The position numbers and the translations under genes were made by a program. A stretch of 64,000 bases of DNA from contig NZ_CP019450.1 of assembly GCF_001983995.1 (NCBI RefSeq), positions 1,302,001-1,366,000 of the forward strand, in the 5' to 3' direction. The notes under the pieces were generated by a model. It ran no database searches, had not been told where the DNA came from, and saw only the letters and a list, made by a program, of their open reading frames with translations. The stretch's first letter is position 1. Every line of letters starts with the position of its first letter. This document shows, one piece after another, positions 6,064 to 55,770 of this stretch. This DNA is from Halioglobus japonicus. GTDB lineage: Bacteria; Pseudomonadota; Gammaproteobacteria; Pseudomonadales; Halieaceae.

Positions 6064-8729
6064 TCAGGCTGTTTCGTTCAGCTCTTCTCGAATGGCCCGC
6101 TGTAATGCCTCACAGCGCTCCGGGTCGGTAATGGGCTGCTGGTCAGCGTCAGTAATAAAGAACACGTCTTCTACCCGTTCACCGAGGGTTTGAATCTTGG
6201 CGGCCTGTAAATCGATGTCGAAGTCGACAAAAATCTTACCAATACGAGCGAGTAGGCCGGGGCGATCGGGGGTGGCAATCTCCAGTACCGAGTAATTTTT
6301 TACCTCATCCACGGACATGCTGGTTTCGGTGGGGATGGAGAATGATTTCTTGGCCCGCGGCGTGCGGCGATTCACTACCTGGGCGCTCGCGTCCTGGCTC
6401 AGGGCGTGGGAGAGAGCTTCGCGGATGTCGTTGATTCGCGCCTGGTCCTCGGCGATCGCCTGGCCGTCAGATCCGAGCACGAAGAACGTGTCCAGTGTCA
6501 TGCCGTCGTTGGCGTTGTAAATGCGCGCATCGTGAATCGACAGATCCAGCTGTTCCAGCTGAGCACAAATACGCGAAAACAGGGCAGCGGAAGAGCGGGC
6601 GTGAATAAAGATCTGGGTGGTATTGGCGACATTGGAATCGAGACTGCTGCGGGCCAGCACCAGCGGCTTGCTTTTGTCATGGTGACCGGCAATGGCTTCG
6701 GTGTGCCAGGCAATGTCCTCGGCTTTCTCGCGCAGGAAGTAGTCTTCGCCGCGCTCTTTCCACACGTCTTCAATTTCCTCGATGGTGAAGCCGCGGTACT
6801 CGAGTGTGTCGATGGCTGCGTCGCGGGTTTCGTCAACCCACACCTGCTTGTCGATGGGATTTTCCAGGCCGCGCCGCAGGGCACGCTTGGTCTCGGTGTA
6901 CAGCTGACGGAGCAGGCTGCCGCGCCAGGCGTTCCAGAGAGTTGGGTTGGTGCCATTAATGTCGGCTACTGTCAGAGCAAACAGGTAGTCCAGGCGATGC
7001 TGGTCGCCCACATGCCTAGCGAACTGCTGGATGACGTCGGGATCGGAAATGTCGCGACGCTGGGAGACGGCAGACATGGTCAGGTGGTTTTCCACCAGCC
7101 ATACGACCAGGTTGGTGTCGCGCTTGCTCAGTTTGTGCAGTTCGCAGAACGCCTGGGCGTCTACCGCGCCGAGTTCTGAATGGTCGCCGCCGCGGCCCTT
7201 GCCGATGTCGTGGAACAGGCCTGCGAGGTATAGCAGTTCGATCTTGGGCAGACGCGCGGTCACCCGGCTGGTCACGGGGAAGCGCTCGGCGAACTCGGGA
7301 ATCTGGAAGCGACGCATGTTTTCAATCACTTCCAGGGTATGTGCATCCACGGTGTAGGTGTGGAACAGGTCGTGCTGCATCTGGCCGATAATCTGGCCGA
7401 ATTCGGGAATATAGCGCCCCATAACGCCGTAGCGAACCATGCGTTTGAGCTGGCGGGTCAGCTTGTAGGGCGAGCGCAGCAGGTCCATGAACATCTTCTG
7501 GTTGATTTCACTGGCGCGGAAACTGTCGTCGATGAGGTCGAGTGATCTGCGCAGCTGGCGGATCGTGGGCGCGGCAATACCGTTTATCGCATCGTTGCGT
7601 GCGCTGAGCAGGAACACCTCGAGTATCGCCGAGGGGTCGATCGAGAACACGTTGTCGTTGCGCGCCTCGATATAACCGTTGCGCATCTGGAAGCGGCCGT
7701 TCAGCTCGAGAATGTTGTGGTCGCCTTCTGCCGTGAGTATGTCTTGGTCGAAGTTCTGGATAAGAACCTCGTTGAGCATGCCCAGGGCCTGGGCCCAGCG
7801 GTAGTAAACCTGCATGAACTGTTCGACGGCGAGCTTCTCGCCATCTTCGAAACCCCACATCTGGGCCAGCTCGCGCTGATGGTCGAACAGCAGACGATCT
7901 TCCTCGCGACCGGTAATCATGTGTAGGGCGTAGCGCACTCGCCACATGAAATCGCGGCCATCGCGCAGGATTTGGGCCTCTACCGGCTCGAGGAACTCGG
8001 CGGCGGTAAGGCGATCCAGCGACTCCACCCCAAAGTGGCGCTCGGCAATCCAGCCAATAATCTGCATGTCGCGGAGGCCGCCTGGTGAGGACTTCACATT
8101 GGGTTCGAGGTTGTATTCGGTGTCGGCAAACTTGGTGTGGCGATTGCGTTGCTCTTCGACCTTGGCGCGGAAGAATGCCGGGCTTGGCCACATCTTCTCG
8201 GTTGAGGTGCCCTGTTGGACTTCCTCCATCAGCCGCTGAGGCCCGCGAATCACCCTTGCCTCCATCAGGTTGGTGAGGATGGTGATATCGCCGGCGGCAT
8301 TCTCAATACACTGCGCTACCGTGCGCACGCTGTGACCGATGTCCAGGCCGATGTCCCACAGCAGGGTCAGGAAACCCTCCAGCTTTGCCTCAGCGTCGCC
8401 AGCGTTCTCATCCAGCAGTAACAGAATGTCGATGTCAGAGCAGGGGTGAAGTTCGCCGCGCCCGTAGCCGCCCACAGCCACCAGACAGTGCTCGCTGTCC
8501 GCGCCGATGTTTTGCTCCCACAGCTGGCCCAGCAAAGCGTCGACGAAAGCGGCGCGTTGGCGGATCAGTGATTCAACGGGGCGCCTTCGCGAAATTGCTG
8601 GTGCAGGTATTCTGTGGCCTGAACAATGGCGCCTTTGCAGGCGGCGATGGCATCGGTGCCGCCCAGGCGGTCGCGCAGAGCGGTGGAGTCAAATAGTTCT
8701 GTGGGCAGAGGGGCGAGGGATGAGGGCAC
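6064..8729 (-). pseudogene. glnD: Bifunctional uridylyltransferase/uridylyl-removing enzyme GlnD, interrupted by an apparent 1-base frameshift
   Basis: GlnD senses glutamine and adds or removes UMP on PII proteins, controlling nitrogen assimilation. The long frame (to 6064) carries the nucleotidyltransferase motif GGYGRGELHP-SDID, the HD-type motif LFHDIGKGRGGDHSELG and two C-terminal ACT domains. Its natural N-terminus is in another frame: a GTG at 8729, preceded by AAGGAA and 8 bases after the map stop, encodes about 50 residues ending in FREGAP. The correct continuation (VESLIRQRAAF) begins in the next frame. Adding one G to the run 8578-8581 joins both parts into an 888-residue protein of normal GlnD length. 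A TTG at 8535 would give only a truncated 823-residue form. A sequencing error seems likelier than true inactivation. Confidence 0.88.
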
Positions 8730-8737
8730 TGGATTCC

Positions 8738-9508
8738 TTAGAAAGTCTCGTTACTGCGACGGGTAAAGATTTCGCAGCCGTCTGCGGTGACGCCAATGGT
8801 GTGTTCCCACTGTGCCGACAGGCGGCCGTCCTTGGTGGTTACGGTCCAGCCATCTTTCTGGTTCAGGCGAGTGTGACGTTTACCTGCGTTAACCATGGGC
8901 TCTATGGTAAAGGTCATGCCTTCTTCGAGCGTGAGGCCAGCACCTTTGCGGCCATAATGCAGTACCTGTGGATCTTCGTGGAATACCTTGCCGATGCCGT
9001 GGCCGCAGTACTCGCGCACCACTGAGTAATAGTTTTTCTCAGCGTGGGCCTGGATGATGGCGCCGATATCGCCCAGTGTGGTGCCGGGGCGGACAATATC
9101 CAGAGCTTTGTACAGGCATTCCTGAGTAATCTGGATCAGGCGGGTTGCATGGGGAGCGACGTCGCCGACTTCCACCATAATACTGGTGTCGCCGTGGTAC
9201 TCATCTTTAATCACGGTGACATCGATGTTAACGATATCGCCGTTCTTGAGCTTCTTGTTGTCCGACGGAATGCCGTGACACACCACGTCATTCACCGACG
9301 TGCAGATCGACTTCGGGAAGCCGTGGTAATTCAGGGGCGCTGGTATCGCTCCTGCGGCGATAATATAGTCGTGACAGATGCGATCCAGGTCACCGGTGGT
9401 GACGCCCACTTGTACGTGGGGTTGGATCATCTCCAGTACTTCGGCGGCCAGGGCGCCGGCGGCGCGCATCTTTTCCAGCTCGTCCGCAGTCTTGATACTT
9501 ACTGCCAT
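8738..9508 (-). CDS. map: Type I methionine aminopeptidase
   Basis: Cytosolic metalloprotease that removes the initiator methionine from new proteins. The 256-residue protein has all five metal ligands of the family: D96, D107, H170, E203 and E235, with H79 in the substrate pocket. I chose ATG 9508 (MAVSIKTADE), which fits the family N-terminus; a TTG two codons upstream is possible. It is the first gene of map-glnD-dapC-nth and is divergent from rpsB, as in many gammaproteobacteria. Confidence 0.95.
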   Translation of the reverse strand: MAVSIKTADELEKMRAAGALAAEVLEMIQPHVQVGVTTGDLDRICHDYIIAAGAIPAPLNYHGFPKSICTSVNDVVCHGIPSDNKKLKNGDIVNIDVTVIKDEYHGDTSIMVEVGDVAPHATRLIQITQECLYKALDIVRPGTTLGDIGAIIQAHAEKNYYSVVREYCGHGIGKVFHEDPQVLHYGRKGAGLTLEEGMTFTIEPMVNAGKRHTRLNQKDGWTVTTKDGRLSAQWEHTIGVTADGCEIFTRRSNETF

Positions 9509-9636
9509 TTGCAACCTATTGAAATATATAAGAAATATGGGTCCGGCCTGCGCTTGGCGAGGGCCGGAGGAGGCACATTCTACATGAATCAGGGTGGCAA
9601 AAGGTAACGCGGCGTGAATTTGCGATGATTTAGCGC

Positions 9637-9665
9637 TTTATCCACCCATCGCTCTGTGGTATAAA
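9637..9665 (+). promoter_or_regulatory. Candidate promoter of rpsB-tsf
   Basis: A -10 box TATAAA at 9660-9665 lies 17 bases downstream of TTTATC at 9637-9642, which matches the -35 consensus only partly. The position, about 55 bases before the structured S2 leader, supports a role in driving rpsB. The 320-base gap between map and rpsB otherwise holds the leader RNA described below and presumably a map promoter on the other strand that I cannot define. Confidence 0.45.
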
Positions 9666-9720
9666 GCGCGCCTCGTTGCCCTGGCGTGGCTGATTTTTGG
9701 TCGCCCAGAGGGGATCGGGC

Positions 9721-9812
9721 ACTAATTGACACACACATATCGACACCTGTTCCAGGGTGCCAACGGCTTGGCCTGCGGTTTGGAATCGGGGATATGTGGA
9801 GGACTAACCCAA
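9721..9812 (+). ncRNA. rpsB leader RNA (S2-binding autoregulatory element type)
   Basis: The untranslated region before rpsB can form a closing helix between CACATATC (9734-9741) and GATATGTG (9791-9798). Inside it are ACACC/GGGTG-type complementary segments, and it is followed by GGAGG and a conserved TAACCC. This arrangement resembles the known gammaproteobacterial rpsB leader through which protein S2 represses its own synthesis. The pairing is seen directly; the regulatory role is inferred from the family. Confidence 0.75.
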
Positions 9813-9828
9813 ATACAAGGTATTTATT

Positions 9829-10578
9829 ATGTCGCAAGTAAGCATGCGCGACCTGCTGCAGGCAGGCGCCCACTTCGGTCACCAGACCCGCTACTGGAAC
9901 CCCAAAATGGACCAGTACATCTTCGGTGCCCGCAACAAGATCCACATCATCAACCTCGAGCACACCGTTCCTGCGTTCAACGAAGCGTTGAACCTGGTGA
10001 AAGGCCTCGCGGGTAACAAGAATAAGATTCTGTTCGTTGGCACCAAGCGCGCCGCCGGCAAAATCATCAAAGAGCAGGCGGAACGCGCCGGCCAGCCCTA
10101 CGTCAGCCACCGCTGGCTGGGCGGCATGCTCACCAACTACAAAACCATTCGCGCGTCCATCAAGCGTCTGCGTGACCTGGAAGCCCAGCAGGCCGACGGC
10201 ACTTTCGATCGCCTGACCAAGAAAGAAGCCCTGATGCGCACCCGCGACATGGAGAAGCTTGAGCGCTCCATCGGTGGTATCAAGGAAATGGGCGGTCTGC
10301 CCGACGCGCTGTTTGTCGTTGACGTTGATCACGAGCGCATCGCGATCACTGAAGCCAACAAGCTGGGTATCCCCGTGATCGGCATCGTCGACACCAACTC
10401 CAACCCTGACGGTGTTGACTACGTTATCCCCGGTAACGACGACGCGATCCGTGCGATCAAGCTGTACGTCACTGCCGTGGCTGATGCGTGCCTGGCTGGC
10501 AAGGCTGAATCTGGCGAAGCGATTCCTACCAAGGATGAGTTCGTCGAAGAAGCCGCTGCTGAAGAAGCCGCCGAGTAA
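9829..10578 (+). CDS. rpsB: 30S ribosomal protein S2
   Basis: Component of the 30S platform/head junction, needed for S1 binding and translation initiation. The 249-residue product starts [19 protein letters not shown] and keeps the RWLGGMLTN and VIGIVDTN segments characteristic of S2; the C-terminus is rich in Glu and Ala. It is followed by a hairpin terminator and then tsf, the normal partner. Confidence 0.98.
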
Positions 10579-10628
10579 GTTCAAGCCCCGGCGCTGCAGA
10601 AACTGTAACGCCGGGCACCTAGAATCTC

Positions 10629-10660
10629 CCCCGGCGCATCGCTGCCGGGGTTTTTATTTT
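10629..10660 (+). terminator. Rho-independent terminator/attenuator between rpsB and tsf
   Basis: A 7-base GC-rich stem (10629-10635 with 10644-10650) with an 8-base loop is followed directly by a run of Ts broken by one A. Placed in the 120-base rpsB-tsf gap, it probably lowers read-through from rpsB into tsf. Confidence 0.8.
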
Positions 10661-10698
10661 CAGATCCAATCACCCGGGATTGCATAGGAGGACAATCA

Positions 10699-11556
10699 AT
10701 GTCAGCAAAACTGGTTAAAGAACTGCGTGATCGTACAGGCCTGGGCCTGCTCGAGTGCAAGAAGGCACTGGCCGCTGCCGACGGCGACGTCGACAAGGCA
10801 ATTGAAGAACTGCGTAAGTCCAGCGGCATGAAAGCTGCCAAGAAAGCTGGCCGCACCGCCGCCGACGGCGTTGTTGTGACTCGTCTGGCTGAAGACGGCA
10901 GCTACGGCATGCTGGTTGAAGTTAACTCTGAAACCGACTTCGTTGCTCGCGACGATAACTTCCTGGCTTTCGTAAACAGCGTTGCCGATGCGGCTTTCGC
11001 TGCCAAGCAGACTGACGTTGCCGCCCTGATGGACGGCGACCTGGAAGCAGCACGTGAAGCGCTGGTACAGAAAATCGGTGAGAACATCGGTGTACGCCGC
11101 ATTGAGCTGGTTAACGCTGACGCCGGTGTAGTTGGTGCCTACGTACACGGCAACAACCGCATCGCGGTACTGGTTGAGCTCAAGGGCGGCGACCAGGATC
11201 TGGCCAAAGATGTGGCTATGCACGTTGCAGCGGTTAACCCCCAGGTTGTATCCCCCGCGGATATGCCCGAAGAGGTTGTCGCCAAGGAGAAGGAAATCTA
11301 CACCGCACAGGCCGCTGAATCCGGCAAGCCCGCCGAGATTATCGAGAAGATGATTGGCGGTCGTGTGAAGAAGTTCCTGGCCGAGAACTCTCTGCTGGAG
11401 CAGGCGTTCGTTAAAGATCCCGACGTAACCGTTGGCAAGCTGGTTTCTGCCGCTGGCGCAGAAGTGGCTTCATTTGTCCGCTTCGAAGTGGGCGAAGGCA
11501 TTGAAGTCGAGAAAGTTGACTTCGCTGATGAGGTTGCGGCCCAGCTCAACGGCTAA
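10699..11556 (+). CDS. tsf: Elongation factor Ts
   Basis: Nucleotide exchange factor that recycles EF-Tu-GDP to EF-Tu-GTP. The 285-residue protein begins with the UBA-like domain ([20 protein letters not shown]) and contains the [13 protein letters not shown] motif near residues 74-86 that contacts EF-Tu. A GGAGG-type ribosome binding site precedes the ATG. The usual downstream genes pyrH and frr are absent; a terminator and an unrelated gene follow. Confidence 0.97.
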
Positions 11557-11591
11557 GGCGCAATCACGCAGATATCCACCGCGTGGATGGG

Positions 11592-11620
11592 AAAGGGAGC
11601 TTCGGCTCCCTTTTTCTTTT
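11592..11620 (+). terminator. Rho-independent terminator after tsf
   Basis: A stem of AAAGGGAGC with GCTCCCTTT closed by a stable TTCG tetraloop (11601-11604) leads into a T-rich run at 11611-11620. This should end the rpsB-tsf transcript. Confidence 0.92.
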
Positions 11621-11727
11621 TCTGGCCCTGATTCGACTAAAAGTCGGGGCCAATTGCATGGAATTCCTGTTGCTCGAACAGGTCCTATGTATAATTCCAG
11701 CAAAGACCGACGTGTTAGTAATTCCCA

Positions 11728-12498
11728 ATGTCCAGAGACGATATCGACCACATTCCCTCTATTGTGCCATCGCGCGATAACGAACACACCATGGTCCGCC
11801 CCACGCCGGGCGCCACGCGCGGCAAGCCCGGAGGCTCGGGCGGTGGCAGTCGCCCGCCAGCCAAAGCGTCGTCTGGCGGTGGCGTGTTCGGCAAGCTGGT
11901 TGCCGTTGTGGCGCTGGTGGTTGCGGCCGTGGCCTGTGCCTGGGCCTGGCAATTGCAGGAGCAGCTCCGGCAGAGCGAGTACGCCCTGCAGGGGCACGAA
12001 ACGCGTATTGCCGATTTGGAGGCTCGCCTGTCTGATACGGACGAGGGCATGAGCCAGAACGCGGCGGTGCAGGCGGCCAAGCTGCGCGAACTGGATTCAG
12101 AGGTTCGCAAACTCTGGGACAATGTGTGGAAAAAGTCCAAGGAGCGCCTGGGTAAGCTGGAGGCGACGACCAAGAAGCAGGGCACCCAGATTGCGGCGAA
12201 CGAAAAGTCGATTTCCTCGACGTCGTCAAAGGTGAACAGTGCAGCGGCCGACCTCGCCAAGCTTAAGAGTGTGTCGGGTGACCTGAGCCGCTTGATGAAC
12301 AGCGCCAAGACCAATCAGGCGGAAGTCGAGCGGGTGGCCGATACTCTGAATCGCATCAATCTGGATATGGCCAAGCTCAATCGCCTGGTGAAGGCCAACG
12401 AGGAAGCGGTGCGCTCCACCGACGCGTTCCGGCGCCAGGTGAACGCGTCTATCGCAGAACTTGAGAGCTCGGTGCGAATTCTACAGGCGGCGCCTTGA
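11728..12498 (+). CDS. Unknown membrane-anchored coiled-coil protein
   Basis: I do not recognise this family. The 256-residue protein has a Gly/Pro/Ser-rich cytoplasmic N-terminus of about 50 residues, one transmembrane segment at about 53-75 (FGKLVAVVALVVAAVACAWAW), and then an almost purely helical tail with heptad-like spacing, predicted to be a long coiled coil in the periplasm. No cysteines or catalytic motif stand out. TATAAT at 11690-11695 is a plausible -10 box. It is convergent with the aminotransferase gene, with the stop codon inside a perfect 8-base hairpin. A structural or scaffold role is only a guess. Confidence 0.8.
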   Translation: MSRDDIDHIPSIVPSRDNEHTMVRPTPGATRGKPGGSGGGSRPPAKASSGGGVFGKLVAVVALVVAAVACAWAWQLQEQLRQSEYALQGHETRIADLEARLSDTDEGMSQNAAVQAAKLRELDSEVRKLWDNVWKKSKERLGKLEATTKKQGTQIAANEKSISSTSSKVNSAAADLAKLKSVSGDLSRLMNSAKTNQAEVERVADTLNRINLDMAKLNRLVKANEEAVRSTDAFRRQVNASIAELESSVRILQAAP

Positions 12499-12509
12499 TG
12501 GCGCCGCGG

Positions 12510-13784
12510 TCAGGCCAGCGCCTGACGAATGCTGGCGAGTTTCACGCAGATCACAAAGGCCTCCGCCGTTGCCTGCACGTCCTTCAGTGAGGGGTAGCTG
12601 GGCGCCAGGCGGATATTGCTGTCCTCGGGGTCGTTTCCGTAGGGGTAGGTGGCACCGGCAGGGGTGAGCGCCACGCCAATATCCGCCGCAAGTTTCACCA
12701 CGGTTTGGGCCAGTCCCGGACGGGTATTGAAGGAAATAAAGTAACCGCCCTGTGGCGACAGCCACTCGCCCATGCCTGTGTCGCCCAGTTCATTTTCCAG
12801 CGTTGCCAGTACGGCGGCGAATCTAGGCCGCAGTAGTGCGGCGTGCTTTTCCATATGGGCCGCGATGCCGGCCGGTGACTGCAACAGTTTAACGTGGCGC
12901 AGCTGGTTGACCTTGTCCGGACCGATGCTCTGAAACCCCAGGTGTTGCTTGAAGGCCGCGAGGTTGGCCGGACTACTGGACAGGAAGGCTACGCCCGCGC
13001 CGGCAAAGGTGACCTTGGAGGTAGACCCGAACTGGAACACGCTCGACTCAGTGCCATGCTTGACGCTGTAGTCCCTGATATTGGCAAGCTCGGGGGCATC
13101 CGCGTCGATGGTGTGCACTGCGTAAGCGTTGTCATACATCACGATAAAGTCATCGCTGGCGATAGTGCCCAGCCTGGCCAGGCGCTCCACTGTCTCTTCG
13201 CTGTATACACAGCCAGTGGGGTTGGAGAAGCGCGGCACGCACCAGATGCCTTTAATGGCAGGATCGGAGCTAACCAGGCGTTCGACTTCGTCCATATCCG
13301 GGCCGTTTGCATCCATCGCCACCGGGATCATTTCAATGCCGAGATGTTCGCAGATGGCGAAGTGACGATCGTAGCCGGGCACCGGGCACAGGAATTTCAG
13401 TTCATCAGAGTTCCCCCAGGCCGATTCAGCACCGCGCAGGCCGACATTGAGGGCGAAGTCGATCACGCTGTACATCAGGGTCAGTGACGAGTTACCGCCG
13501 ATCACAATGTCTGACTCAGGCACACCCATCACCTTGCTGAACAATGCCTTGGCCTCTGGCAGGCCATCGAGGCCGCCATAGTTGCGCACGTCGGTGCCGT
13601 TGCTGGCGCGATAGTCGCCTTCGAGAATACCGTCGAGGGCGTCGGACAGTGACACCTGCTCGGTGCCGGGTTTGCCACGGGTCAGGTCCAGTGATAACTG
13701 GCGCTCTGCCAGGGCCCGGTACTGTGCTTCCAGGGTGTCGAGTTGGGCGCGTAATTGGTCGGCCGACATTTGCTCGATATGCAC
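12510..13784 (-). CDS. Aminotransferase of the aspartate aminotransferase Ic subgroup
   Basis: PLP-dependent, cytosolic, probably aspartate transaminase. The 424-residue protein belongs to the subgroup known from actinobacterial aspartate aminotransferases: it opens with LDLTRGKPG, contains GGNSS (96-100), SNPTG (187-191), YDNAYAVH (217-224) and the Schiff-base lysine K257 in STSKVTF. The start is GTG 13784, preceded by AGGA; the first ATG is five codons later. It is divergent from the Lon-like gene. Exact substrate is not fixed by sequence. Confidence 0.85.
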   Translation of the reverse strand: MHIEQMSADQLRAQLDTLEAQYRALAERQLSLDLTRGKPGTEQVSLSDALDGILEGDYRASNGTDVRNYGGLDGLPEAKALFSKVMGVPESDIVIGGNSSLTLMYSVIDFALNVGLRGAESAWGNSDELKFLCPVPGYDRHFAICEHLGIEMIPVAMDANGPDMDEVERLVSSDPAIKGIWCVPRFSNPTGCVYSEETVERLARLGTIASDDFIVMYDNAYAVHTIDADAPELANIRDYSVKHGTESSVFQFGSTSKVTFAGAGVAFLSSSPANLAAFKQHLGFQSIGPDKVNQLRHVKLLQSPAGIAAHMEKHAALLRPRFAAVLATLENELGDTGMGEWLSPQGGYFISFNTRPGLAQTVVKLAADIGVALTPAGATYPYGNDPEDSNIRLAPSYPSLKDVQATAEAFVICVKLASIRQALA

Positions 13785-13870
13785 GGTGGCTTCCTTGTGG
13801 TGGTCTAGAATTCAGGGCAGGGGAGTATAGCCGCGGTGCGCCTGCGCGAACAGGTGACCAATGTCACAAG

Positions 13871-13898
13871 CTTGAATTCAGCACTGGTGCCCGCATAT
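13871..13898 (+). promoter_or_regulatory. Sigma-32 (heat shock) type promoter of the Lon-like gene
   Basis: CTTGAA at 13871-13876 and CCGCATAT at 13891-13898 are separated by 14 bases. The sigma-32 consensus is CTTGAA, 13-14 bases, CCCCATNT; the match is 6 of 6 and 7 of 8. The predicted transcript would start about 25 bases before ATG 13930. A heat-shock promoter is expected for a Lon-family protease. Confidence 0.72.
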
Positions 13899-13929
13899 CT
13901 GTGTCACAGACATTGCCTTGAGGATAAGC

Positions 13930-16353: not shown

Positions 16354-16385
16354 TCAGCGCGGCCTGAGGCCGCGCCGTAACCGGA

Positions 16386-16814
16386 TCAGTACTGGTTGTT
16401 TGCGTCCGAGAGTTGCTCGTTGAGCGTCAGGAAGTCCCACAGTACGCCGAGCAGGAAGAAGCCACCGGTGCACAGGTAGATGACACCGGTAATCCACTTG
16501 CCCATGTACATGCGGTGGATACCGAAGATGCCCAGGAACGTGAGCAGAATCCAGGTCAGGTCATAATCCTTGGGCCCGGGGACAAACCGGCGATCCGCAT
16601 CGCGGGACATGCCCGGGATAAGCAGTAGATCGATAATCCAGCCGATAAAGAACAGGCCCAGGGTGAAAAACCAGATAACGCCCGATATCTGCCTGCCGTA
16701 GTAAAACCTGTGGGCCCCAATGAATCCGAAGATCCATAGCAAATATCCCATAAAGACCGAATGCGTACCTTCCTGGCGTTCCAAGTCGCTGCTCCCGCAA
16801 GTGTGTATTGCCAT
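16386..16814 (-). CDS. TM2-domain membrane protein
   Basis: A 142-residue protein of the TM2 family, whose function is unknown. It has hydrophobic segments at about residues 20-37, 41-59, 81-98 and 103-122. The TM2 signature is duplicated: GFIGAHRFYYGR and GIFGIHRMYMGKWITG. The frame remains open upstream, but ATG 16814 (MAIHTCGSS) is a sensible start, and no strong ribosome binding site is visible. It is convergent with the Lon-like gene 32 bases away. Confidence 0.78.
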   Translation of the reverse strand: MAIHTCGSSDLERQEGTHSVFMGYLLWIFGFIGAHRFYYGRQISGVIWFFTLGLFFIGWIIDLLLIPGMSRDADRRFVPGPKDYDLTWILLTFLGIFGIHRMYMGKWITGVIYLCTGGFFLLGVLWDFLTLNEQLSDANNQY

Positions 16815-16949
16815 GGTGTTGGCTCTGGTGGGCCGCGTCAAGAGGCTGGCGCCCGCGTCAGAGTGACTATAATGATCTGGTTCATGGCCCCGCGCCGGTA
16901 AAGCGGTACGCTGGTAAGCAACCCTGTAGGTCACCCCAGAGGACCTCGA

Positions 16950-17189: not shown

Positions 17190-17191
17190 CC

Positions 17192-17712: not shown

Positions 17713-17731
17713 TCGCCTTCCTTTTTCGGGG

Positions 17732-45743: not shown

Positions 45744-45851
45744 GCGCACGCCGCCTTTTGATGACAGGCGGCGGTCGCTTTCACGGCAGGGGATTGTTAT
45801 AGTCCTGCGTTCGCAAAAATAATCTTATTACCAGTATTGAGAGGAACCTCC

Positions 45852-46370
45852 ATGGCGTCACGCGGAGTCAATAAAGTGATCATCGTCGGCAATCTGGGTA
45901 ACGACCCGGAGACCCGCTTCTTCCCGGACGGTGGGGCAGTGACCAACGCCAGCATCGCTACCAGTGAGACCTGGAAGGATCGCCAGACCGGCGAACAGAA
46001 AGAGCGCACCGAGTGGCACCGGGTCGTGTTCCGCGATCGGGGCAACTATCGCCTGGGCCAAATTGCCGGTGAGTACCTGAAAAAGGGCTCCAAGGTGTAT
46101 GTGGAGGGTTCTCTGCAAACCAGGAAATGGCAGGATCAGTCCGGCCAGGACCGTTACACCACCGAAATCCTCGTCAACGAAATGCAGATGCTCGACCCCC
46201 GCGGTGCTGGCGGTGGTCAACAGGGTGGTTACGGCGGTGACAGTGGCTTCAGCCAGGCACCGCAAGGACAATCCGGTGGCGCCGCGGCAGTGCCGCAGAG
46301 CGCGCCGGCTTCCGCGGCACAACCTGCCCCTCAGGATTTCGGCGATTTCGACGACGATATTCCGTTCTGA
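45852..46370 (+). CDS. ssb: Single-stranded DNA-binding protein
   Basis: Homotetrameric SSB protecting single-stranded DNA in replication and repair. ATG 45852 ([16 protein letters not shown]) with GAGAGGAA upstream gives 172 residues. The OB fold spans about 1-110; a Gly/Gln/Ala/Pro-rich linker leads to the acidic C-terminal tip DFDDDIPF that docks partner proteins. An in-frame TTG at 45837 is not supported. Confidence 0.97.
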
Positions 46371-46392
46371 CGAAACCGTGTTTCGCTCCCTT

Positions 46393-46430
46393 GAAAGGCC
46401 GCATTTAGCGGCCTTTCTGGGTTTTGGGGG
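46393..46430 (+). terminator. Terminator-like hairpin after ssb
   Basis: A perfect 10-pair stem GAAAGGCCGC/GCGGCCTTTC (46393-46402 and 46408-46417) with a 5-base loop is followed by CTGGGTTTT. The T-run is short and delayed, but position and stem strength fit transcription termination after ssb. Confidence 0.65.
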
Positions 46431-46529
46431 CTCCCACCGGTACTTTTTCCGAATTTACCGGCCGCGACGCCCACTGGCCGGCAAATATGTTACCTTTCTG
46501 GCATCCATACTCACGACAGTTGTTACATT

Positions 46530-47392
46530 TTGCGCGTTCTTCTTCTCGGTTCTGACAGCCCGCTGGGGCGTGCCCTCGGCGAATTTCTCGCTGACAAGGG
46601 GCGGCACGAGGTCACCAGTGTGACGTGGGCGGCATCGCGTTGGAAAAGTGAGCGCCAGGCCAAGAAGGCTATTCGCCGCGTTGATGCAGAATTGGTAGTG
46701 GATATTCGCATTGAAGCGGTGGCTGACAGTGGTCAGGAGATTGGCGATCTCGATCTGAAACGCAGTCACTGGGTGGCAAAGTGCTGTCAGCGTGATGGCG
46801 CCGCCCATTTGTTTGTGTCCAGTGCCCGGGTGTTCTCCGGGAAGCTCGACCGCATGTACAACGAAGACGATATTCCCGATAGCGAGGAGGGGGTGGGTCC
46901 GTTACTGGCTGCCGCTGAACAGGTCGTGCGAGAGAATTGTGACCGTCACCTTATTCTGCGGCTGGGGCCGGTCTTCGCCAGTGATGGACCCAACCTGGTG
47001 ACGCAGATGCTGGGCGATATGCGCCGCGGCAAGCAGCTGGTGCTGGATAACAACCTGCGCGGTTGCCCGGTGTCTTCGGATGACGGCGCCCGGGTGGTCT
47101 CGGCGATTATCGACCAGCTCAGCAGGGGGCTGAACTGTGGGGCTTTTTCCACTACTGCAGCTCCGAGACGGCGACCTACTACGAATTCGCCGAATCCGTG
47201 CTGGCCGCGGCTACGCAGTTTAGCGACGTCAGCCCTGAGCCGGTGGAACTGCAGCAATTGTCGGAAGATGCTCCCAGTCTCAACCGCTCTCTGGAGTGCA
47301 GCAAAATCCGCAATACCTTCGCGATCAAGCAGTTGCCCTGGCGCAATACGATCGGCGATATGGTCAAGCAATACTACGAACAGCAAGCATAA
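46530..47392 (+). pseudogene. RmlD-like sugar-nucleotide reductase-type protein, interrupted by an apparent 1-base frameshift
   Basis: Resembles dTDP-4-dehydrorhamnose reductase family (extended SDR) proteins: MRVLLLGSDSPLGRAL at the start is a Rossmann nucleotide loop and LFVSSARVFSGK fits the SDR active-site strand. After about residue 203 (RGLNCGA) the frame turns into low-complexity Ser/Arg/Pro sequence. The proper continuation (FHYCSSETATYYEFAESVLAAA and an end in YYEQQA) is in another frame and stops at 47392. One extra base at the G run 47139-47142 restores a 287-residue protein. Start is TTG 46530 without a strong ribosome binding site. moaB follows after 12 bases. Role in the cell unknown; the rhamnose function is not implied. 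Confidence 0.8.
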
Positions 47393-47404
47393 GGAGTTCT
47401 CTCC

Positions 47405-47935
47405 ATGGCCAAGGCCACCGACGACAGCCCCCAGTCCCTGGGTGTGGCTGTGCTGACAGTTTCGGACACCCGTACCGATGAAAATGACACCTCCGGACAA
47501 TTTCTGGTGGAGGCATTGGGCGACGCCGGCCACGCGCTGCGGGACAAGCAGATAGTGATCGACGATATTTACCAGATTCGAGCGGTACTCTCGGCCTGGA
47601 TTGCCGATGATGCGATTGAGGCGGTGCTGGTGACCGGCGGTACCGGCTTTTCAGGGCGTGATTCGACTCCGGAAGCGGTTGCGCCGCTGTTCGATAAGTC
47701 CATCGACGGATTTGGCGAAGTGTTTCGCGCCCTGTCTTATGAGGAAATCGGTTCCTCCACAGTCCAGTCTCGGGCACTCGCGGGCCTGGCCAATAACACG
47801 GTGATCTTCTGTATGCCGGGCTCCACCGGTGCCTGTCGCACTGCCTGGGGCGGCCTGATCCGCGACCAACTCGATTCGACTTACCGCCCCTGTAATTTTG
47901 TCGGTGTATTGCGCGTCAGGAGCCAGCACGCTTGA
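47405..47935 (+). CDS. moaB: Molybdenum cofactor biosynthesis protein MoaB/MogA family
   Basis: Acts in adenylylation of molybdopterin. The 176-residue protein shows [16 protein letters not shown] (about 16-31), [18 protein letters not shown] and [12 protein letters not shown], the MoaB/MogA signatures. It overlaps the moeA start by four bases (TTGA), which suggests a moaB-moeA operon. Confidence 0.92.
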
Positions 47936-49128
47936 GCGGCCTGACTCCGCTGGCTGATGCGCTGGCCCAGGTAGTCAGCCAGGCACCTGTGCCGCCCGAA
48001 CCTCAGTATGTCTGCGTTATGGATGCCCTGGGGCTGACCCTGGCGGAAGATGTCGCTTCGCCGATAGATGTGCCGCTCAATGACAACTCTGCCATGGACG
48101 GTTATGCCCTGCGCGCTGCTGATGCGGGACAATTATTGCCGGTCGCGCAGCGTATCGCGGCGGGTCAGGTAGGTGAACAACTTGAGCCGGGTACGGCAGC
48201 CAGAATATTTACCGGTGCTGAGATCCCTCCCGGCGCTGATGCTGTGGCCATGCAGGAAAACTGTACTGAGGAAGAAGGCCAGCTGCGTATTCATCATCCC
48301 CTCGAGGCGGGGGCCAATGTCCGCCCTCGCGGCCAGGATATTGCCCGCGGCGCAACCGTGTTGGTGCGCGGCCGCCGTCTCAGGCCGCAGGACCTTGGCC
48401 TGCTGGCCTCGGTCGGGCGTGCGCAGGTGGCGGTGTACCGGCCGCTGCGCGTGACCGTGCTGTCGACGGGCGATGAGCTGGTTGAGCCTGGGCAGGGCGA
48501 ACTCGCTCCGGGTCAGCTCTACAATTCCAATCGCTATACGTTGGCGGGCCTGGTGCGTTCGCTGGGTATGGAGTTTGTCGACGGTGGCATGGTGGCGGAT
48601 ACCCCTGAGGCTACCGGAGATGCCCTGGAGGCTGCGGCACAGCGCGCCGATGTGGTTATCACCTCTGGCGGCGTTTCCGTTGGCGAAGAAGACCACGTGA
48701 AAGGACAGGTAGAGCGCCTTGGTGCACTGTCGCTGTGGAAACTCGCCATTAAGCCCGGCAAGCCCCTGGCCTTTGGCCGCATCGGTGACACGCCGTTTAT
48801 TGGGCTGCCCGGCAACCCCACATCGGTATTTGTCACCTTTCAACTGGTGGCAAGACCTTTTCTGCAGCGTATGCAGGGCCTGGCGGAAGCGCCCGCACCC
48901 TCGCTGGTGGCGCGGGCCGACTTTGCCGTCAAGCGTGCCGGTAGCAGGCAGGATTACCTGCGGGTGATTGTCGAGCGAGACAGCACTGGCCTGGTTGCAA
49001 AGCGCCTCTCCAACCAGAGTTCAGGCGTGTTGAGTTCTGTCAGTTACAGCAATGCCCTGGCGGTCATTCCTGTGGGGACAACGGTTGCCCCTGGTGATGA
49101 GGTCGAGGTCTTGTTGTTGGATTTGTGA
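47932..49128 (+). CDS. moeA: Molybdopterin molybdenumtransferase MoeA
   Basis: Inserts molybdate into adenylylated molybdopterin. The 398-residue protein has [11 protein letters not shown] (about 50-60), [16 protein letters not shown] and [16 protein letters not shown], plus the C-terminal barrel domain. The start is TTG 47932, overlapping the moaB stop, with AGGAG nine bases upstream inside moaB. Confidence 0.94.
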
Positions 49129-49148
49129 GGTCTGTCGAGCTGGGGCGG

Positions 49149-50629
49149 TCAGGAGATGCCCAGCTCGTCCCATAGCTCGTCGACCCGGTCTTTTACGGCC
49201 TGGTCCATGGCAATCGGCTCACCCCATTCGCGGTCGGTTTCTCCTGGCCACTTGTTGGTCGCATCAAAGCCCACCTTGGAGCCAAGGCCAGCCACAGGTG
49301 ACGCGAAATCCAGATAGTCGATGGGGGTGTTCTCGATGAATACGCTGTCGCGCTGCGGGTCCATGCGCGTGGTCATGGCCCAGATCACGTCTTTCCAGTC
49401 GCGGGCATTCACGTCTTCATCGGTGACGATGACAAACTTGGTGTACATGAACTGGCGCAGGAATGACCACACGCCGAGCATGATCCGTTTGGCGTGGCCG
49501 GGATATTCCTTGCGCATGGTGACGACGGCCATCCGATAGGAGCAGCCCTCGGGCGGCAGGTAGAAGTCCACGATCTCGGGAAACTGCTTCTGCAGCAGCG
49601 GCACGAAGACTTCGTTCAGGGCGACGCCGAGTACGGCCGGTTCATCGGGCGGTCTGCCAGTGTAGGTACTGTGGTATATGGGATCTTCGCGGTGCGTAAT
49701 CGCCTCAACGGTAAATACCGGGAAGCGCTCGACTTCGTTATAGTAGCCGGTGTGATCGCCAAAGGGGCCCTCGTCGGCCTCTTCTCCGGGTTCCAGATAG
49801 CCTTCGAGTATGTACTCTGCGCTGGCGGGTACCTGCAGGCCGTGTTCCCTGCATAGTGGTGTGAAGCACTCTGCTAGCTCGGTTTTGGAACCCCGCAGCA
49901 GGCCGGCGAAAGCGTACTCAGACACCGGGTCAGGAATAGGCGTTACCGCTCCCAGCGTCGTGGCCGGATCTGCGCCCAGGGCAATCGCCACAGGGTAGCG
50001 TTTGCCCGGGTGCTTCAATTGCCATTCGCGATAGTCCAGAGCGCCACCGCGGTGCGAGAGCCAGCGCATGATCAGCTTGTTTTTGCCGATCAACTGCATG
50101 CGGTAAATGCCGAGATTCTGGCGTTCCTTATCGGGACCGCGGGTAATCACCAGCGGCCAGGTGACCAGCGGGCCCGCATCGCCGGGCCAGCAGGTCTGGA
50201 TCGGCAGTTGATACAGATCGACTTCGTCGCCCTGCTTGGCGTGATACTGGCAGGGTGGGTTGCGGACCATCTTCGGGCCCATGTTGAGGACTTTTTTGAG
50301 TACCGGGGCCTTGTCGGCCAGGTCGCGAAAGCCTTTGGGGGGTCCGGTTGGCGTAGATAGGCCAGTAGCTCCCCGATCTCGCGCAGGGCGGTGACATTCT
50401 CTCCACCCATGCCCAGTGCCACCCGCTGCTCGGTGCCGAACAGGTTGGCCAGCACCGGTGTGTCGAACCCCTTGGGATTTTCGAACAGCAGCGCCGGACC
50501 GCCGGCCCGCAGGGTGCGGTCGGCGATTTCCGTCATCTCAAGATTAGGGTCGACCTCCGCGGTAATGCGCACCAGCTCGCCGCGCTGTTCAAGCTCGGCA
50601 ATAAAGTCGCGGAGGTCTTTGTATTTCAT
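49149..50629 (-). pseudogene. ubiD: 3-octaprenyl-4-hydroxybenzoate carboxy-lyase UbiD, interrupted by an apparent 1-base frameshift
   Basis: Prenylated-FMN decarboxylase of ubiquinone synthesis. The N-terminal piece (ATG 50629, [19 protein letters not shown]) runs to about DPPKAF and then loses sense. The remainder, closely matching UbiD from [10 protein letters not shown] to the end ([14 protein letters not shown]), lies in another frame. Adding one base to the six-G run at 50337-50342 joins them into 493 residues, against 497 in E. coli. All conserved UbiD parts are then present, including [10 protein letters not shown] and the [12 protein letters not shown] motif. Apart from this point nothing suggests decay. 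It is downstream of rho, as in Pseudomonas, and convergent with moeA. Confidence 0.9.
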
Positions 50630-50639
50630 TTCTGCTCCC

Positions 50640-50667
50640 CGTCATTCCCGCGCAGGCGGGAATTCAC
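50640..50667 (+). repeat. Dispersed palindromic repeat, copy 1 (ubiD side)
   Basis: CGTCATTCCCGCGCAGGCGGGAAT-type unit: an inverted repeat TTCCCGC-GCA-GGCGGGAA preceded by GTCA. Short palindromes of this GTCATTCCCGCG...GGCGGGAAT kind are known as dispersed extragenic repeats in many proteobacteria. It lies ten bases upstream of the ubiD start. Confidence 0.7.
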
Positions 50668-50757
50668 TGGCCTTTTGGACAAAGAACAAGTATTCATCGG
50701 GAATTGAACCGGCTCTTTGATTAATTGTCTGGTTCGAGATGATCTATGACTGCAGAA

Positions 50758-50788
50758 CCCCTGGATCCCTGCCTTCGCAGGGATGACA
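50758..50788 (-). repeat. Dispersed palindromic repeat, copy 2 (rho side), inverted relative to copy 1
   Basis: Read on the minus strand this is GTCATCCCTGCGAAGGCAGGGATCCAG, the same type of unit as copy 1 with some changes. The two copies face each other about 90 bases apart in the 174-base rho-ubiD gap, giving a REP-pair or BIME-like arrangement. It may also act as a hairpin at the end of the rho transcript, 16 bases past the stop. Confidence 0.7.
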
Positions 50789-50803
50789 TTGCCGAGGGCA
50801 ACG

Positions 50804-52072
50804 TCACTTGCGCTTCATGGACAGGAAGAACTCGTCGTTGGTCTTGGTGTCCTTGAGCTTGTCGATCAGGAATTCCACCGCGGGCAGATCTTCCATGCCG
50901 TGCAGCAGCTTGCGCAGGATCCACATGCGCTGCAGTTCTTCATCGCCGGTCAGCAGTTCTTCGCGGCGAGTGCCGGAAGAGCGGATGTTGATTGCGGGAT
51001 ACACGCGCTTTTCAGCCACCTTGCGATCCAGATGCAGTTCCATGTTACCGGTGCCCTTGAACTCCTCGTAAATCACCTCGTCCATTTTGGAGCCGGTATT
51101 GATCAGGGCGGTAGCGATGATGGACAGGCTGCCGCCTTCCTCGATGTTCCGCGCGGCGCCAAAGAAGCGCTTGGGGCGTTCCAGAGCGTGGGCGTCTACA
51201 CCACCGGTAAGTACCTTGCCGGACGAGGGGATAACCGTGTTGTACGCACGTGCCAGACGGGTGATGGAGTCGAGCAGGATCACAACGTCACGCTTGTGCT
51301 CCACCAGGCGCTTGGCCTTTTCGATAACCATATCCGCCACCTGCACGTGGCGCGAGGGTGGCTCATCGAAGGTCGACGCAACGACCTCGGCACCGCGGGC
51401 ACCGACAGAGCGCTGCATCTCTGTCACTTCTTCGGGACGCTCGTCGATCAGCAGTACGATGATGTAGCACTCAGGGTTGTTGCTGATAATCGCCTGGGCG
51501 ATGTTCTGCATCATGATGGTTTTACCGGCCTTGGGCGGTGCTACTAACAGGCCACGCTGGCCTTTACCAATCGGGGCCACCAGGTCGATGATGCGGCCGG
51601 TGAGGTCCTCGGAGCTGCCGTTGCCCTTTTCAAGAGTCAGGCGCTCATCCGGGAACAGCGGCGTCAGGTTTTCGAACAGGATCTTGTTCTTGGATTGTTC
51701 AGGTTTACTGAAGTTAACCTCGCCAACCTTGAGCAATGCGAAGTAGCGCTCGGAATCTTTCGGCGGGCGAATCTTGCCGGAAATGGTGTCGCCGGTGCGC
51801 AAGTTGAAGCGGCGGATCTGGCTCGGCGAGACATAAATGTCGTCGGGGCCAGCCAGGTAAGAGCTGTCAGCGCTGCGCAGGAAGCCGAAGCCGTCCTGGA
51901 GAATTTCCAATACACCGTCACCGTAGATATCTTCACCGCTTTTGGCGTGTCGCTTGAGAATGGCAAAGATGATGTCCTGCTTCCGTGAGCGGGCCATGTT
52001 TTCAATGCCCATCTCCTTGGCAATATCGATGAGTTCCTGGGTGGGTTTGTTCTTCAGATCAGTAAGATTCAT
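50804..52072 (-). CDS. rho: Transcription termination factor Rho
   Basis: Hexameric RNA helicase terminating transcription. The 422-residue protein starts [21 protein letters not shown], has the RNA-binding cold-shock-like domain ([19 protein letters not shown]), the P-loop VAPPKAGKT near residue 178-186, and the Walker [16 protein letters not shown] segment. Length and sequence are typical; no insertion. A candidate promoter lies in the 180-base gap to ppk2. Confidence 0.98.
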
Positions 52073-52202
52073 AAATGCGATGCAATAGAGGCGTGAAAGG
52101 AAAAAGAATTAGATACATGCGCGCGGCTGCTGCCGGCCGGGTGAAGCTAAAAAGTTGAGTAGCAGAGTTTTTATTGCTGCACAGAAGTGTGCGACAGACC
52201 AA

Positions 52203-52231
52203 AATGTAGCACGGGTCGGTAAGGGCGTCTA
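52203..52231 (-). promoter_or_regulatory. Candidate rho promoter
   Basis: On the minus strand TAGACG (52226-52231) and TACATT (52203-52208) are 17 bases apart, each matching four of six consensus positions. The transcript would carry a leader of about 125 bases before rho; a long leader is common for rho, which is autoregulated in E. coli. Weak support. Confidence 0.35.
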
Positions 52232-52251
52232 TAGCTATTTTAGATCGTTTT

Positions 52252-53151
52252 TTAGCCGATGGCGTATTCGCTCTGACCGACGATAAGCGGGTCCATATGG
52301 AGCAAATCGTCACGCTTTTCCGGGTATTCCAGTGAGCTCAGAAAGTGTTGCAGGCAGGCGATGCGGGCGCGTTTTTTGTCTGAGGATTTCACAATCGTCC
52401 AGGGCGCGTGGGCCGTATCGGTATAAAAAAACATATCTTCTTTTGCCTGGGTATAGTCATCCCAGCGGCTTTGGGCCGCCTCGTCGATAGGAGACAGCTT
52501 CCACTGCTTCAGCGGATCCTGGCGACGTTTATTGAACCGCGCTTGCTGCTCTTCCTGGCCAACGGTCAGCCAGAACTTGAACAGGTGGATGTCGCTGCGA
52601 ACCATCATGAGTTCCAGTGCAGGCGCCTGCAGCATAAATTCCTGATACTGCTCCTGAGTGCAAAAATCCATTACCCGCTCGACCCCGGCGCGGTTGTACC
52701 AGCTGCGATCAAACAGCGCGATATGACCGTTGCTGGGAAAGTGGCGGATGTAGCGCTGGAAATACCACTGGCCCTGTTCCTCGGGGGTGGGCTTGTTCAG
52801 GGCGACCACGTGGGTGTGACGCGGATTGAGATGCTCGACAAAGCGCTTGATGGTGCCACCTTTGCCGGCGGCATCGCGGCCCTCAAACAGGATAACGATT
52901 TTCTGCTCTGTGGCGATGGCCCAGCGCTGCGCCTTGAGCAATTCGATCTGCAGCAACTGGAGATGCGATTCGTAGGCCTTCTTGCGGAGTCGGTCAGCGT
53001 AGGGGTGCTGGTCGCTGGCAAAGTGGGCGATGATGTCTTTGCTGCTGAGCATCTGCTCAGCGAGGCCGGGGTGCAGCGCGTCGCGCGCTATGGCCTGGGG
53101 ATTGATCGCACGGCGCGCGGGTCTGGATGAAGGCGCCGTGCGAGAGGTCAT
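52252..53151 (-). CDS. ppk2: Polyphosphate kinase 2 family protein
   Basis: PPK2 proteins transfer phosphate between inorganic polyphosphate and nucleotides, usually making ADP/ATP or GDP/GTP. The 299-residue protein has Walker A FEGRDAAGKGGTIKRF (about 91-106) and the Walker B/lid DRSWYNRAGVERVM (about 151-164), both diagnostic. It belongs to the one-domain class; the acceptor nucleotide is not predicted here. It starts 6 bases after the trxA stop on the same strand and precedes rho, breaking up the trxA-rho neighbourhood usual in related genomes. Confidence 0.93.
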   Translation of the reverse strand: MTSRTAPSSRPARRAINPQAIARDALHPGLAEQMLSSKDIIAHFASDQHPYADRLRKKAYESHLQLLQIELLKAQRWAIATEQKIVILFEGRDAAGKGGTIKRFVEHLNPRHTHVVALNKPTPEEQGQWYFQRYIRHFPSNGHIALFDRSWYNRAGVERVMDFCTQEQYQEFMLQAPALELMMVRSDIHLFKFWLTVGQEEQQARFNKRRQDPLKQWKLSPIDEAAQSRWDDYTQAKEDMFFYTDTAHAPWTIVKSSDKKRARIACLQHFLSSLEYPEKRDDLLHMDPLIVGQSEYAIG

Positions 53152-53157
53152 CCCGGG

Positions 53158-53484
53158 CTATACCACTTCCTGGATGAACTCGGTGAGCTGTGACTTGGAC
53201 AGGGCACCCACTTTGGTGGCTTCAGCGTTACCGCCTTTGAAGACGATCAGCGTGGGGATGCCGCGGATGCCGAACTTGGGCGGAATTTCCGGGTTGGCGT
53301 CCACGTCCACTTTGGCAATCTTCAGCTTGCCTTCGTACTCGGCCGCGATTTCGTCCAGCACGGGCGCAATCATTTTGCAGGGACCGCACCATTCGGCCCA
53401 GAAATCCACCAGCACGGGGATATCGGAATTGAGGACTTCGGCATCAAATGATGCGTCGGTAACGTGTACGATCTGGTCTGACAT
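53158..53484 (-). CDS. trxA: Thioredoxin 1
   Basis: General disulfide reductase. ATG 53484 ([13 protein letters not shown]) gives 108 residues with WCGPCK at about 32-37 and the cis-proline segment [11 protein letters not shown]. The frame is open upstream for 27 codons, but these do not look like thioredoxin. First gene of trxA-ppk2-rho; divergent from the TVP38 fusion gene. Confidence 0.96.
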
Positions 53485-53656
53485 TGTGTTCTCCGGTTGA
53501 TCTGCGAGGCCTGGCCCCGCGTAGTTTTGACGTCGGTCATCATAGCCAGCCACCCGTAGCGGCACAAGCAGCGCATCCAGAGTTTTTCGTAATGCTCTAA
53601 TTGCCCTATGTTATAAACACAGCTGGCTATACTCTTGCGATCTTTATGGGGGCGTC

Positions 53657-55770
53657 TTGAATAAAAAACAACTGTTGCTGGGCATTATTGTCGCGGCATT
53701 CATAGCCTGGTTCGGCCTGGATCTGGGGCAGTACCTGCAGCTGTCCTGGGTGCAGGGCAAAATGGGTGAACTGCGGAGCTGGTACGCGGCCAATCCGCTC
53801 CTCGCGGGCGCCCTATACTTCGGCCTCTATGTGGCCGTGACGGGCTTGTCGATACCCGGGGCTGCGGTCATGACCCTGGCGGGCGGCGCGCTGTTCGGCT
53901 TCTGGTACGCCTTGGTGCTGGTGTCTTTTGGCAGCAGCATCGGTGCCACCATTGCCTTCCTGATCTCCCGTACGCTACTGCGCGACTGGGTGCAGCAGCG
54001 CTTTGGGCAGCAGTTACGGCCGGTGAATGAGGGGTTTGCCAAAGACGGTGCCTTCTACCTGTTTGGCCTGCGCCTGGTGCCGCTGTTTCCGTTTTTCGTG
54101 ATCAATCTTGCCATGGGCTTACTACCCATTGGCACCTGGCGTTATTACTGGGTATCGCAGCTGGGCATGTTGCCGGCCACGGCGGTCTACGTGAACGCGG
54201 GAACCCAGTTGGGGCAACTGGATTCGCTGGCCGGCATTGTGTCTGCGCCGCTGCTGATTTCCTTTGCCCTGTTGGGCGTGTTCCCACTGCTCGCGCGGCG
54301 GACGCTCAATGCACTGCAGAATCGCCGGGCGCTTGCCAAGTGGGATAAACCGAAGTCGTTCGATACCAATATGGTGGTGATTGGCGCCGGGTCCGCGGGG
54401 CTCGTCTCGGCCCTGATTGCTGCTACTGTGCGGGCGAAGGTGACCCTGGTCGAGCGCGACCGCATGGGGGCGATTGTCTGAACACCGGGTGCGTGCCCAG
54501 CAAAGCGCTGATTCGCTCGGCGCGCATGGCCCATTACGCCCAGCGCGCCAGCGAGTTTGGTCTGGTGCCGATGGACGTTCAGGTGCGCTTTGCAGACGTC
54601 ATGAGCCGAGTGCGCTCGGTGATAGCGACTATCGAACCACACGACTCGGTAGAGCGTTTCACCGGTCTTGGTGTCGACTGTGTTCAGGGCGAGGCCCAGC
54701 TTGTATCTCCGTGGGAAGTGGAGGTGAACGGCGACCGCATTGCCGCGCGAAACATTGTCGTCGCCACCGGTGGCAGGCCCCGGGTGCCGGATATTCCCGG
54801 GCTTGAGGACGTGGGGTACCTGACCTCAGATACCGTCTGGGAGCTGGAACAGTTGCCCGAACGCCTGCTGGTGCTGGGCGGTGGCCCCATCGGCTGTGAG
54901 TTGGCTCAGGCCTTTGCCCGCCTCGGCGCATCAGTGAGTATCGCCACCCGCGGCTCTCGCCTGCTGCCGCGCGAGGACAGCGAGGTCTCTGACGTGGTCG
55001 AAGCTGCGTTCACCGCAGAGGGTATTTCACTTCACCTGGGCAAACAGCCCGAGGCGTTTGCGCCAGGCGTGTGCCGGCTCGAAGGCGGCGAGAGCATCGC
55101 CTTCGATGCCGTATTGCTGGCGGTGGGCCGCAGTCCCAATGTCGAGGGCCTGGGTCTCGAAGCGCTTGGCGTTGAGCTGAATCCGGCCGGTCATCTTGAT
55201 GTGGATGACTTTCTGCGCACTCGAGTGCCCTCCATTTATGCTGCGGGCGATGTTGCGGGCCCCTACCTGTTTACCCATATGGCCAGCCACCAGGCCTGGT
55301 ATGCCTCGGTCAATGCGTTGTTTGGGCGCTTTCGCAAATTCCGGGTCGACTACTCGGTGGTGCCCTGGGCGACGTTTATCGACCCCGAGGTTGCCCGGGT
55401 GGGCCTGAATGAGGCCGATGCTCAGGCTCAGGGTATTGCCTACGAGGTCAGCCGCTACGATCTGGATGATCTCGACCGCGCCATCGCCGACGGCGAGGCA
55501 AAAGGCTTTGTGAAAGTGCTGACCAAGCCGGGCAGTGACCGTATTCTGGGTGCCACTATCGTTGGCTATCATGCGGCTGAATTGATCAACGAGTTTGTGC
55601 TGGCGATGAAACACGGCCTGGGACTCAACAAAATTCTCGGCACTATTCATATTTATCCCACGCTGTCCGAGGGCAACAAATTCCTCGCCGGTGAGTGGCG
55701 CAAGGCGCGCAAGCCGGAGAAACTGCTCGATATCGTGGAGCGCTATCACCGCTTTAATCGCGGTGCTTAG
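53657..55770 (+). pseudogene. TVP38/TMEM64-flavoprotein disulfide reductase fusion, interrupted by an apparent 1-base frameshift
   Basis: The first frame (TTG 53657) encodes a membrane domain of the SNARE-associated TVP38/TMEM64 type (residues about 1-225; GAAVMTLAGGALFGF, ISRTLLRDWVQQRFG). A Rossmann FAD-binding start (NMVVIGAGSAGLVSALIAA) follows, then VERDRMGAIV and a stop. The second frame, from about 54471 to 55770, holds the rest of a class I pyridine nucleotide-disulfide oxidoreductase: NAD motif LVLGGGPIGCELAQAF, the IYAAGDVAGP motif and the dimerisation domain (HIYPTLSEGNKFLAGEW). Adding one G to the run 54466-54470 restores GGDCLNTGCVPSKAL, the CxxxxC redox site, and a 704-residue protein. 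TVP38-mercuric-reductase-like fusions of this length are known; the substrate is not. Confidence 0.87.

Follow-up and report, generated by a model that had tools for sequence, protein, structure and literature searches.

Four interrupted genes in a 64-kb window

The window analyzed here is a 64,000-nucleotide stretch of the Halioglobus japonicus genome (bases 1302001-1366000 of contig 1; the genome comprises 4,116,357 bases in 4 contigs and is rated 99.98% complete). In four of its genes, the reading frame is broken in or next to a short G/C run:

6064..8750, minus strand: glnD (protein-PII uridylyltransferase), break at the GGGG run 8578-8581
46395..47389, plus strand: rmlD-like sugar reductase gene, break in or next to the GGGGG run 47125-47129
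49149..50641, minus strand: ubiD (4-hydroxy-3-polyprenylbenzoate decarboxylase), break at the GGGGGG run 50337-50342
53546..55770, plus strand: gene for a fusion of a TVP38 domain with a pyridine-nucleotide-disulfide oxidoreductase (TVP38-flavoprotein), break at the GGGGG run 54466-54470

Family scans placed the pieces of these genes on either side of the breaks. The downstream piece of glnD is an 823-amino-acid open reading frame (ORF; 6064-8535) that matches positions 64-887 of 895 in NCBIfam PRK00275, while the upstream piece lies within the open frame 8568-8750. The match of the upstream rmlD-like ORF to its family stops at profile position 203 of 285. For ubiD, two ORFs in different frames match positions 4-106 and 121-490 of 497 in PRK10922, and in the TVP38-flavoprotein gene, the oxidoreductase family is divided between ORFs 53657-54481 and 54493-55770.

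We aligned ~700 bases around each break to relatives in the Halieaceae, which include Halioglobus maricola, Pseudohalioglobus sediminis, Pseudohalioglobus lutimaris, and Seongchinamella sediminis. Among the matches listed, all relatives have one base more than the window. For glnD, this is the net difference in 11 of 11 relatives, as a lone one-base gap in 6 and as several gaps summing to one in 5; a single extra base was found for the rmlD-like gene at 47123-47129 in 6/6 relatives, for ubiD in 13/13 loci (12 genomes; two loci lie on the same contig), and for the TVP38-flavoprotein gene in 10/10 loci (9 genomes). A run of 6 is present in 3 of the 13 ubiD loci and in 1 of the 10 TVP38 loci; in most relatives, the run is interrupted. 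These data support the initial annotation, according to which each of the four genes is one base short at a G/C run, and agree with the runs it named in glnD, ubiD, and the TVP38-flavoprotein gene. The loss that it placed in the GGGG run 47139-47142 of the rmlD-like gene is misplaced: this run has the same length in the relatives as in the window.

A protein collection was searched with GlnD, UbiD, and the TVP38-flavoprotein, and it contains near-identical, unbroken counterparts of GlnD and the TVP38-flavoprotein. P0002 is an 888-amino-acid GlnD in which residues 2-51 equal the upstream frame of the window and the remainder differs from it by 2 substitutions. P0242, P0243, P0244, and P0245 are four near-identical intact TVP38-flavoproteins of 704 amino acids; P0243, which is encoded on contigs of up to 835,615 bases, departs from the window only at the start residue and at the break. 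Judged by their identity to the window, these five proteins probably come from the same species.

Upstream of ubiD, at window positions 50644-50663, lies a 20-base inverted repeat, ATTCCC-N8-GGGAAT, with a shape like that of the dRS3 element of Neisseria. The exact pattern occurs once in 864 kb of the H. japonicus genome and not at all in 395 kb of H. maricola; the interval 50637-50666 gave 11 short matches in the congener G001 and one in P. sediminis.

Split genes elsewhere in the genome

A synteny comparison with H. maricola was abandoned, as just three blocks (~15 kb) of 464 kb aligned to 400 kb of that genome; because syntenic blocks were so few, we used a frame-tracking hidden Markov model instead. 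The model was order-4 and phase-specific, forbade in-frame stops, allowed same-strand frame switches, and was trained on long ORFs. It was run, with separate training for each genome, on 464 kb of H. japonicus (400 kb in addition to the window) and on a 400-kb portion of H. maricola (395 kb without N); 20 stretches of 20 kb spread along the H. japonicus chromosome served as a second sample (400 kb). We considered a switch suspicious if it was located at least 40 bases ahead of the upstream stop, or if no start codon was near that stop. To confirm a frameshift, the pieces were scanned separately against Pfam or NCBIfam, and one family had to be divided over two frames.

Same-strand switches were similarly numerous in the 464-kb block and in H. 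maricola (115 versus 109), while the suspicious ones numbered 24 and 6, respectively. By the first rule alone, there were 15 in the 464-kb block, 3 in the 395 kb of H. maricola, and 21 in the 400-kb spread sample. Among the 24 block candidates, all of which were examined, 10 were confirmed, 7 were rejected as pairs of different genes, and 7 were neither. A rule that admits only the shift expected from the loss of one base gave 12 further block candidates, of which 3 were examined and 1, the TVP38-flavoprotein gene in the window, was confirmed. The spread sample gave 35 candidates, including 10 to 11 that this shift-bound rule had picked; 24 were examined as pairs, with 9 confirmed (all from the shift-blind rule), 4 rejected, and 11 neither, and one more was examined through a single piece. 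Within the window, the model also raised an overlap at 61033, which proved to be two different genes (glutamate-cysteine ligase and ACP phosphodiesterase) and is one of the 7 rejected block candidates, and an overlap at 4839, where H. maricola shows a similar one.

The confirmed events total 20 and affect 18 genes; as the two samples together cover 864 kb, or 21% of the assembly, this corresponds to 2.3 events per 100 kb. In H. maricola (395 kb), no split gene was found among the 5 candidates scanned out of 6 selected, with 15 further candidates outside the scan. The difference between 20 confirmed events and none among 5 checked control candidates argues for more than chance. The initial annotation had proposed that the genome-wide rate of single-base homopolymer frameshifts be determined; these counts give a floor. 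The 14 genes outside the window are as follows (numbers are profile positions unless a coordinate is indicated):

464-kb block: panC, Pantoate_ligase 2-100, then 91-267 in another frame
464-kb block: dnaE2, PHP, then DNA_pol3_alpha in another frame
464-kb block: class I fumarase gene, Fumerase, then Fumerase_C in another frame
464-kb block: citrate/sulfate-type symporter gene, CitMHS 1-165, then 166-328
464-kb block: xanthine/uracil-type permease gene, 3-211, then 228-386
464-kb block: glutamate-synthase-domain gene (coordinates L102:3179-3823), two breaks, with 221-271 in another frame than both sides; the frame is left near 3410 and regained near 3570
Spread sample: CaiB-type CoA-transferase gene, 6-105, then 110-389
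Spread sample: oligopeptidase B-like gene, 3-549, then 546-674
Spread sample: rtcR-like regulator gene, 63-279, then 279-504
Spread sample: tamB, 198-735, then 727-1239
Spread sample: sdhA, 2-300, then 299-584
Spread sample: ispF, YgbB 1-113, then 103-155
Spread sample: RND-family transporter gene, 7-656, then 672-1019
Spread sample: purine nucleoside permease family gene (coordinates L165:9492-10563), broken twice (2-134, 142-271, and 264-313), both breaks within ~400 bases and both with the one-base-loss shift

The seven block candidates that were neither confirmed nor rejected comprise two in a DUF11 protein and five possible frameshifts for which homology did not decide: a ThiF plus rhodanese gene (L101:10945-12047), a DUF1631 gene (L111:2280-3566), a DinG-like helicase (L112:15972-18109), a PQQ-repeat gene (L116:13713-15769), and a DJ-1 family gene (L103:7695-8461).

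The initial annotation had also suggested checking whether close relatives keep the frames. For all eight genes compared in this way (glnD, panC, sdhA, the fumarase gene, dnaE2, the oligopeptidase B-like gene, the permease gene, and tamB), the relatives have one open frame. The fumarase gene is a single frame of 511-520 amino acids in 6/6 congeners; the oligopeptidase B-like gene was found in 1/6 congeners and the permease gene in 4/6. A single stop inside the matches to dnaE2 (2/6 congeners) and to the permease gene (2/4) was in all cases ahead of the start. Where compared, the pieces were between 72% (tamB) and 95% (ubiD) identical to the nearest relative.

Sign, base type, and run length of the losses

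The one-base-loss shift was observed in 19 of the 20 confirmed events. Outside the window, it was observed in 15 of 16, which has a probability of 2.6e-4 if gains and losses are equally likely. Natural gene overlaps also favor this shift class, and the unconfirmed candidates are therefore uninformative about sign. All five spread-sample candidates with the opposite shift were examined; three were different genes and two were neither confirmed nor rejected.

Ten sites were aligned base by base to relatives, namely, those in the four window genes, panC, sdhA, the fumarase gene, dnaE2, the oligopeptidase B-like gene, and the xanthine/uracil-type permease gene. At each of the ten, one base is missing from a G/C run whose present length is 2-3 to 7, although the exact missing position is ambiguous at several of them (sdhA, the fumarase gene, and glnD). 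No nucleotide alignment to relatives was obtained for the tamB junction. Runs of at least four bases in the 464 kb number 2,050 for A/T and 2,367 for G/C; the chance that all six sites aligned outside the window fall in G/C runs is ~0.536^6 = 0.02.

By eye, the C run (or its reverse complement) is preceded by G at nine of the ten aligned sites, compared with 46-50% for C runs of 3-6 bases overall. Possibly, this bias is a context effect of the base caller; it was noticed post hoc and is a lead only, because the missing position is ambiguous at several sites.

Interpretation and alternatives

Based on these comparisons of sequences, we consider it very probable that the four broken frames are assembly errors in which short G/C runs were called one base short in the consensus, and that the organism most likely has intact genes. 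One base would have been dropped from short G or C runs, probably in a consensus built from incompletely polished long reads, and the raw reads would be expected to have the longer runs. Under-calling of homopolymers was also the cause favored in the initial annotation, and it best explains the data because 14 more genes outside the window have similar losses, all but one of the 20 events share one sign, unrelated genes (e.g., sdhA, panC, and ispF) are hit, the relatives lack the losses, and two of the four window genes have intact near-identical counterparts among the proteins of other records. Most likely, the artifact extends across the genome beyond the window and does not represent a real biological feature.

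If the losses were instead true, they could be null mutations that arose recently in a lineage of mutators that has lost mismatch repair, with frameshifts gathering in G/C runs. Loss of mismatch repair raises the frequency of homopolymer frameshifts, the events are scattered over the genome, and one of them may be a gain. Nevertheless, mutS (profile 1-840 of 840, open frame of 873 amino acids) and mutL (profile 1-554 of 555, open frame of 643 amino acids) are full length, all but one of the events have the same sign, the near-identical proteins elsewhere are intact, and sdhA, panC, ispF, and the fumarase gene are hit in a genome rated as almost complete; a mutator is therefore very improbable. 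We judge a strain with a true burst of one-base losses in G/C runs, which would combine a replication defect, intact mutS and mutL, almost a single sign, and proteins made by slippage, to be equally hard to credit. The same central genes argue against ordinary pseudogene decay under relaxed selection. A frameshift is a common first step of decay, but a single break was detected in 16 of the 18 genes and two in the other 2, the pieces retain their identity to the relatives, and none of the five checked candidates in the control congener was split. A living aerobe without sdhA, fumarase, panC, and ispF is hard to explain, and the probability of decay is lower still than that of a mutator.

Two further explanations were considered. 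Phase variation, in which genes are turned off by slipped-strand mispairing, has a known substrate in poly-G/poly-C tracts (PMC3711429), and the 6-base runs in some ubiD and TVP38 loci of relatives would fit with it. The assembled runs in the window (4, 5, 6, and 5 bases) are nevertheless below the 7-base minimum used in that survey, the genes encode housekeeping enzymes, and the run is interrupted in most relatives, all of which makes phase variation exceedingly unlikely. Programmed ribosomal frameshifting or transcriptional slippage could restore the proteins and would be in agreement with the coding character kept on both sides of each break. In that case, 18 unrelated genes would need it, even though the breaks are not conserved and the eight genes tested in relatives have one open frame; moreover, known slippage sites, as described in the survey, often have at least 8 bases, usually A or T (PMC3711429). 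We regard this possibility as no more credible than phase variation. The alternative that the initial annotation had set aside as much more surprising, phase-variable or relaxed slippage sites, disagrees with the data in run length, gene content, and conservation.

Several observations weigh against assembly error. One confirmed event, the first break in the glutamate-synthase-domain gene (near position 3410 of L102), is alone in having a shift that corresponds to the gain of one base or the loss of two, and no homopolymer longer than 3 was found there. G/C runs of 6 bases are slightly scarce in the assembly (8.8 per 100 kb, compared with 12.7 in the congener), and those of 7 bases are not scarce (2.8 versus 2.0); with a small deficit of 6-base G/C runs only, we dropped run-length depletion as a stand-alone test. 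P0002 and P0242-P0245 may belong to other strains, and no near-identical UbiD was found among the matches listed in the protein collection, the best being 95% identical. In addition, run lengths below 5 are reported to be mostly well estimated by nanopore sequencing (PMC8486125), while the affected runs here are short, and deletions in A/T runs were commoner than those in G/C runs in the Kastor example (PMC12007338).

The preferred explanation of under-called G/C runs matters to users of the assembly rather than to the biology of the organism. Scaled from 864 kb to 4.12 Mb, the confirmed events would correspond to some 95 or more false frameshifts; this number is a floor because the examination of pairs covered 24 of the 35 spread candidates and 3 of the 12 extra block candidates, and 18 of all the candidates examined remained undecided. 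With so many false frameshifts, sdhA, panC, ispF, ubiD, and glnD would be annotated as pseudogenes and metabolic reconstructions would be wrong. The analysis also shows that such errors can be recognized without reads, from the sign of the shift, the type of base, the length of the run, and a comparison with a congener.

Comparison with known cases

Deletion errors in long-read assemblies track homopolymers, mostly after four to five bases, and inflate the number of frameshift pseudogenes (PMC12007338), as do homopolymer indels that survive polishing (Homopolish, PMC8011154). For longer runs, nanopore sequencing performs worse on C and G than on A and T, and it tends to underestimate run lengths (PMC8486125); the residual errors after polishing may lean to A/T or G/C runs depending on the tool (PMC11232133). 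The control used here, H. maricola IMCC14385, is itself a long-read assembly (PacBio, one contig, 4,306.4 kbp; PMC10100682).

Similar to the assemblies described for Kastor and Homopolish (PMC12007338, PMC8011154), the H. japonicus assembly has scattered one-base homopolymer deletions and frameshift pseudogenes that relatives lack. It differs from the Kastor example, in which A/T runs were affected more frequently, in that the 10 aligned sites are all G/C and in its lower density, since that example has 1101 frameshifted genes, compared with ~2.3 confirmed events per 100 kb, as a floor, here. The GeneTack survey (PMC3711429) expected singleton frameshifts validated by homology to be sequencing errors; its singletons, like the events described here, are non-conserved frame transitions validated by homology, but that survey covers 1106 genomes, while the events reported here are concentrated in one assembly.

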